Positions 39,075-39,150 of a DNA stretch of 64,000 bases are shown here, one piece after another. Both the position numbers and the translations under genes were made by a program. The DNA is from Tabrizicola sp. (GTDB taxonomy: Bacteria; Pseudomonadota; Alphaproteobacteria; Rhodobacterales; Rhodobacteraceae): the NCBI GenBank assembly GCA_025458105.1, contig JALOTD010000001.1, positions 26,777 through 90,776 of the forward strand, written 5' to 3'. Below the pieces are notes generated by a model. That model was not told the DNA's origin, did not search any database, and saw only the letters and a list, made by a program, of their open reading frames with translations. How positions within the stretch are numbered: the stretch's first letter is position 1; each line of letters starts with the position of its first letter.

Positions 39075-39150
39075 GCCCGGTTAGCTCAGAGGCCAGAGCT
39101 GCGCTTTTGTAAAGCGAGGGTCGGGGGTTCGACTCCCTCACCGGGCACCA
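39075..39150 (+). tRNA. tRNA-Thr(UGU), complete, island-encoded
   Basis: 76 nt with encoded CCA; acceptor GCCCGGT/ACCGGGC, D-stem GCTC/GAGC, loop TTTGTAA (anticodon TGT), T-arm GGGGG-TTCGACT-CCCTC. Confidence 0.93.

Follow-up and report, generated by a model that had tools for sequence, protein, structure and literature searches.

tRNA-dependent lysogeny has been demonstrated experimentally for mycobacteriophages (Guerrero-Bustamante and Hatfull 2024, mBio, PMC10865867). The elements concerned are complete temperate phages of Actinobacteria that target tRNA-Lys, tRNA-Ile2, or tRNA-Leu: a tyrosine integrase acts at an attB within the tRNA gene, the core is short (8–17 bp), the tRNA is rebuilt at neither junction, and the phage carries a tRNA with the same anticodon as its target. 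Among closely related integrases, some restore the target gene and others replace it. Its authors ask about the prevalence of the mechanism beyond actinobacteriophages and cite one Lactobacillus prophage. In the Alphaproteobacteria, two intact Sinorhizobium meliloti prophages inserted in tRNA-Leu(UAG) disrupt the gene centrally and supply a tRNA that looks like one from an unrelated alphaproteobacterium, whereas the survey reports the tRNA gene as preserved for its other tRNA-integrated elements, among them genomic islands (PMC11476347). Canonical tRNA-targeting genomic islands also have a tyrosine integrase, a crossover in the anticodon loop, and a piece of tRNA at the island end, but the fragment that they bring makes the gene whole again (Islander, PMC4383910).

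The locus described here, an integrase island of about 14.7 kb in the alphaproteobacterium Tabrizicola sp., agrees with tRNA-dependent lysogeny in its tyrosine integrase, an attB within a tRNA gene, junctions that rebuild no tRNA, and a carried tRNA with the anticodon of its target, with a core of 13 bp and a gene-restoring sister integrase at 62% identity. It shares with the S. meliloti prophages the central disruption of a tRNA gene and the supply of a foreign-looking replacement, and, unlike canonical islands, it restores an intact target tRNA at neither end. It differs from both groups of phages in being a small island with restriction-modification cargo and no recognizable particle genes, and from the actinobacterial cases also in its target, tRNA-Thr(UGU), and in being known from sequence alone. 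The principle itself is thus already known, from tRNA-dependent lysogeny and from the two Sinorhizobium prophages; its use by a small restriction-modification island appears to be new. We found no earlier description of a non-phage island that breaks and replaces a tRNA in the open-access literature searched, which is not proof of absence.

The window analyzed is a stretch of 64 kb from the Tabrizicola sp. assembly GCA_025458105.1 (contig JALOTD010000001.1, positions 26,777–90,776 of the forward strand). The assembly comprises 4.1 Mb in 165 contigs and is 90% complete. Features of the island and its target are collected in Table 1.

Table 1. Features of the island and of the interrupted tRNA gene, in window coordinates
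Feature	Position	Strand	Evidence or remark
Promoter-like motif of native tRNA-Thr gene, TTGCAC-N17-TATCTG	25017..25045	+	now precedes 5' part only
Host tRNA-Thr(UGU), 5' part	25057..25097	+	ends in anticodon stem-loop; 100% over 41 nt to relatives' intact gene
Left 13-bp att core TGATTTGTAATCA	25085..25097	+	
Integrase-proximal att arm	25098..25250	+	resembles arm of L141 and L146 islands behind broken tRNA-Arg(UCU) 5' parts
Tyrosine integrase, 448 aa, near left end	25251..26597	+	PF00589 E=7.5e-14; PHROG integrase
Helix-turn-helix (HTH_17) protein, possible excisionase	32294..32653	-	Pfam, PHROGs
BstXI-family type II restriction endonuclease	32668..33621	+	PF09552 E=1.3e-88; PADLOC REase_II
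N6/N4 DNA methyltransferase, likely partner of restriction enzyme	33613..34740	-	PF01555 E=7.2e-42; PADLOC
Conserved island protein, no assigned function	34989..36020	+	69% identical to counterpart in G177 island
T5orf172-domain small protein	36617..37027	+	
Promoter-like motif of island tRNA, TTGCAG-N17-TACATG	39038..39066	+	ends 8 nt before island tRNA
Intact island tRNA-Thr(UGU), CCA encoded	39075..39150	+	ARAGORN; Rfam
Right 13-bp att core TGATTTGTAATCA	39781..39793	+	
Host tRNA-Thr(UGU), 3' part	39781..39828	+	stem-loop to CCA; 100% over 48 nt to relatives' intact gene

The destruction of a host tRNA-Thr(UGU) gene by the element, claimed in the initial annotation, is borne out by the two pieces that flank the island. 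Joined through the 13-bp core, which corresponds to the anticodon loop plus three stem pairs on either side, they make a gene of 76 nt that is identical at 76/76 positions to the uninterrupted gene of three genomes of the same genus. The left neighbors of the uninterrupted locus are the same in all three of these genomes and the right neighbors in two of the three; given the perfect match over 76 nt and the syntenic flanks, the split gene is not a matter of chance. Both junctions are partial tRNAs, neither of them called by ARAGORN, and the island ends share only 13 bp, so that the gene is rebuilt at neither end. In an assembly as fragmented as this one, the split could conceivably be a chimera of contig ends, arising through an assembly or strain-mixing artifact. 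We find this explanation hardly credible and the least probable of those considered, because both junctions lie on one contig of 90.8 kb at a known integrase target, the 13 bp that they have in common are too short for most assembly overlaps, the joined halves reproduce the relatives' gene exactly, and a genome of another family has a related island that likewise carries a tRNA at this end (G177, see below).

The second tRNA of the locus lies inside the island, 630 bp from its right end as measured from the last base of the tRNA to the start of the right core, in agreement with the earlier estimate. It was likewise correctly recognized as a complete tRNA with anticodon UGU: ARAGORN and Rfam give exactly the same ends, the latter with a score of 60.2 bits (cut-off 29), and both the anticodon loop TTTGTAA and the opposition of G27 and A43 are present. 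Its divergence from the host tRNA had been described as extending across all stems, which is true only in part: the differences fall in acceptor pairs 5–7, the anticodon stem, the D loop, and a few T-arm positions, whereas the D stem (GCTC/GAGC) and acceptor pairs 1–4 are identical. Overall, 54/76 positions (71%) are shared with the host tRNA-Thr(UGU). With tRNA-Thr(UGU) genes from other alphaproteobacterial families, the identity of the island tRNA rises to 83–84%, and no comparably close match was found in other genomes of its own family within the sample compared. In phage and plasmid collections, the best full-length matches reach about 76–82%, with Rhizobium phage RHph_X2_28B at the top. 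Judged by its closer match to other families than to the native gene, the island tRNA is foreign.

We then have to consider whether the host depends on this tRNA. The threonine tRNAs in the inventory of the assembly are GGU, CGU, and the island UGU only. The initial annotation had allowed for an additional intact chromosomal tRNA-Thr(UGU), and none was found in a search across the 90%-complete assembly; a pattern combining the UGU anticodon loop and the T loop identified as real tRNA sequence just two sites, the tRNA within the island and the detached 3' part. Applied to the genus, the same pattern found a recognizable tRNA-Thr(UGU) gene in 28 genomes, many of which are 95–100% complete, and never more than a single real one per genome (three further genomes, with completeness of 59, 70, and 81%, have no recognizable one; the remaining pattern matches are not tRNA-like). 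Thus, the genus's single-copy gene is the one that is broken in this genome, and the sole intact UGU gene found is that of the island. Together with the 13-bp core, this supports the proposal that the element replaces rather than repairs the host gene. The inventory also failed to return Ile-GAU, Ala-UGC, Tyr-GUA, and Ser-GCU tRNAs, which are expected; since obligatory tRNAs are missing from it, a second UGU gene could be missing too, and its absence is strong but incomplete evidence. Under such circumstances the island tRNA might be incidental cargo, serving codon supplementation or protection against tRNA-cutting defenses, while a second chromosomal tRNA-Thr(UGU), absent from the assembly, sustains the host. 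The incompleteness of the assembly, with its 165 contigs, leaves room for this, and the G177 host does retain an intact native gene beside the island copy; a second native copy would nevertheless be unusual in a genus with one UGU gene per genome, and we consider this explanation improbable. The data support a non-redundant role of the island tRNA as a replacement, barring a copy hidden in the unassembled part.

Several features suggest that the island tRNA is functional. Threonine identity elements comprise the first two acceptor pairs plus G35 and U36. The island tRNA retains the conserved positions G1-C72, C2-G71, A73, U33, and A37 and the encoded CCA; the G27-A43 mismatch may slightly weaken the anticodon stem. 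A general sigma-70 consensus scan found no promoter. The motif class TTGCRN-N16-18-TAYNTG, picked after both sites had been inspected, has two matches in the 64-kb window, one before the native tRNA (25017) and one before the island tRNA (39038). This motif lies upstream of the native tRNA-Thr(UGU) in 25/27 same-genus genes, with the form TTGCRN-N17-TATCTG in most relatives. ACA accounts for 28 of 7895 sampled codons in host genes, and it is not read by GGU or CGU anticodons under standard wobble rules. We also considered that the integrated state is a dead end, in which the tRNA is a nonfunctional relic and ACA is read by tRNA-Thr(GGU) or tRNA-Thr(CGU), or the sampled population is mostly island-free. 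The mismatch in the anticodon stem would fit a relic, but the retained core positions and high Rfam score, the host-like promoter motif, and the wobble rules for GGU and CGU all speak against it, and we regard such a dead end as very improbable, if slightly less so than an assembly artifact. Taken jointly, the observations are best explained by an island that splits the single-copy tRNA-Thr(UGU) gene of its host, an event made survivable by the foreign tRNA that it carries, and we hold this to be very probable.

The remainder of the island consists mostly of unknown genes. Among the main island ORFs scanned against Pfam and PHROGs, we found no phage structural, packaging, or lysis families; what the scans gave in this respect was the integrase, the possible excisionase, the methylase, and unknowns. 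On this gene content, the island would not classify as a temperate phage. A scan of viral contigs gave no match to the integrase, and a search of viral contigs for the anticodon-arm pattern of the island tRNA and for the conserved island protein gave none either; BstXI-like enzymes are present in viral contigs. The C-terminus of the integrase seems to be without the usual HxxR histidine, and both this enzyme and its relative in G076 read KQCR at that place, so that their catalytic residues would be unusual among tyrosine recombinases.

Relatives of the integrase allow a comparison between restoring and replacing elements. The sister island, in an Antarcticimicrobium MAG (G076), encodes the 62% identical integrase and uses the same target gene and the same anticodon stem-loop core. 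It has a core of 49 bp, rebuilds the native gene, carries no tRNA of its own, and faces the opposite way with respect to the tRNA gene. We rejected the idea that an element of the G076 type had simply inserted the other way round, because the TGT at the center of the core is no palindrome. Further integrase relatives are located at tRNA-Asn(GUU), several of them with the gene rebuilt. Two more, one from Roseovarius sp. A-2 (L141) and one from Sedimentitalea xiamensis (L146), have the same att arm as the Tabrizicola island, behind degenerate tRNA-Arg(UCU) 5' parts. An island in a genome of another family (G177) is collinear with the Tabrizicola island (80% DNA identity over 2.9 kb and 73–80% in other blocks) and has, about 80 bp in from the end that corresponds to the right end here, a tRNA-Thr(UGU) of another sequence. 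We initially read it as a tRNA swap and dropped this reading, since the native tRNA-Thr(UGU) is intact 26 kb away; carrying a tRNA does not, therefore, always imply dependence. The integrase of the G177 island is truncated and adjoins a second integrase, so that a later element may have rebuilt the native gene.

A parallel case involves another tRNA and another integrase. An island of ~6 kb in Sedimentitalea xiamensis encodes a C5 methylase and an integrase that is only distantly related (25% identity). It interrupts a tRNA-Arg(UCU) gene whose 5' part lies near L146:12300 and whose 3' part lies at 18547; the core measures 9 bp. An intact tRNA-Arg(UCU) of different sequence (12436–12512) is part of the island and is the genome's only match of that type by pattern. 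Across L146:9841-18590, the order is two successive broken tRNA-Arg(UCU) 5' parts, the intact foreign tRNA-Arg(UCU), the 6-kb island, and the 3' part. Because the broken gene sits behind an older island remnant with a still older broken piece, this arrangement may represent serial replacement of tRNA-Arg(UCU).

Other loci show broken, duplicated, or mosaic tRNA genes. In Roseovarius sp. A-2 (G544:C7:103607-103848; L148:17605-17848), about 130 bp separate the broken 5' part of a tRNA-Arg(CCG) from a following, intact tRNA-Arg(CCG) of different sequence. The larger ORFs nearby include no evident integrase, and no 3' part turned up within ~57 kb; the pair is a possible scar. In G026, a genome of the same genus as the Tabrizicola host, the sole tRNA-Thr(UGU) at the orthologous, syntenic locus (L150:9858-9932) is a mosaic with native acceptor and T arm and with D and anticodon arms identical to tRNA-Thr(UGU) of other families, which could have been left by a past swap or by gene conversion. 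G130 (C21:3741-24485; L154, L155) has a broken tRNA-Thr(UGU) 5' part, an intact copy 190 bp on, and a 3' part 20.5 kb on. Our first impression of a further swap was not kept, as the intact copy matches the genome's own broken halves; from this match, the locus may be a composite of two ordinary elements or a self-derived replacement. In G173 (L153:4896-7069), two tRNA-Thr(UGU) copies with identical 5' flanks lie 2.1 kb apart, and one is without the acceptor 3' strand after the T loop.

For the Tabrizicola island, a swap is supported by the pattern of a split gene, a short core, a cognate foreign tRNA, and a single copy in relatives. We suggest that recombination by the tyrosine integrase takes place between the core in attP and the matching anticodon stem-loop sequence of the single-copy host tRNA-Thr(UGU). 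As attP shares only this 13-bp core with the host, both junctions are dead tRNA pieces. The host gene would be lost immediately on insertion, and survival would rest on the island tRNA already present. We infer that this tRNA, with its own promoter-like motif, is expressed and charged and takes over ACA decoding. It would be essential during integration, so that deletions at the right end would be lethal, and the host would be freed only by precise excision that rebuilds the native gene or by gaining another UGU tRNA. An addiction-like stabilization, as put forward in the initial annotation, is plausible on this basis; because precise integrase-mediated excision would regenerate the host gene, the protection would cover partial deletions and decay at the right end but would not prevent the island from leaving cleanly. 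With a whole tRNA on board, attP need not match the 3' half and acceptor stem of the host gene, and the host range may thereby widen.

These findings extend a mechanism described in temperate phages to small genomic islands and account for an island that carries precisely the tRNA that its insertion destroys. Island-mapping methods that require a rebuilt or intact cognate tRNA at one end would miss or misplace such elements, the present one included. We see about even chances that breaking and replacing a tRNA gene is a recurrent lifestyle of small non-phage restriction-modification islands in Alphaproteobacteria, that it arose from more than one combination of integrase and tRNA (Thr-UGU in Tabrizicola, Arg-UCU in S. 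xiamensis), and that it can result in scars or successive swaps through which foreign genes permanently take the place of single-copy host tRNA genes. Such islands would offer a route for the horizontal replacement of conserved single-copy tRNA genes.
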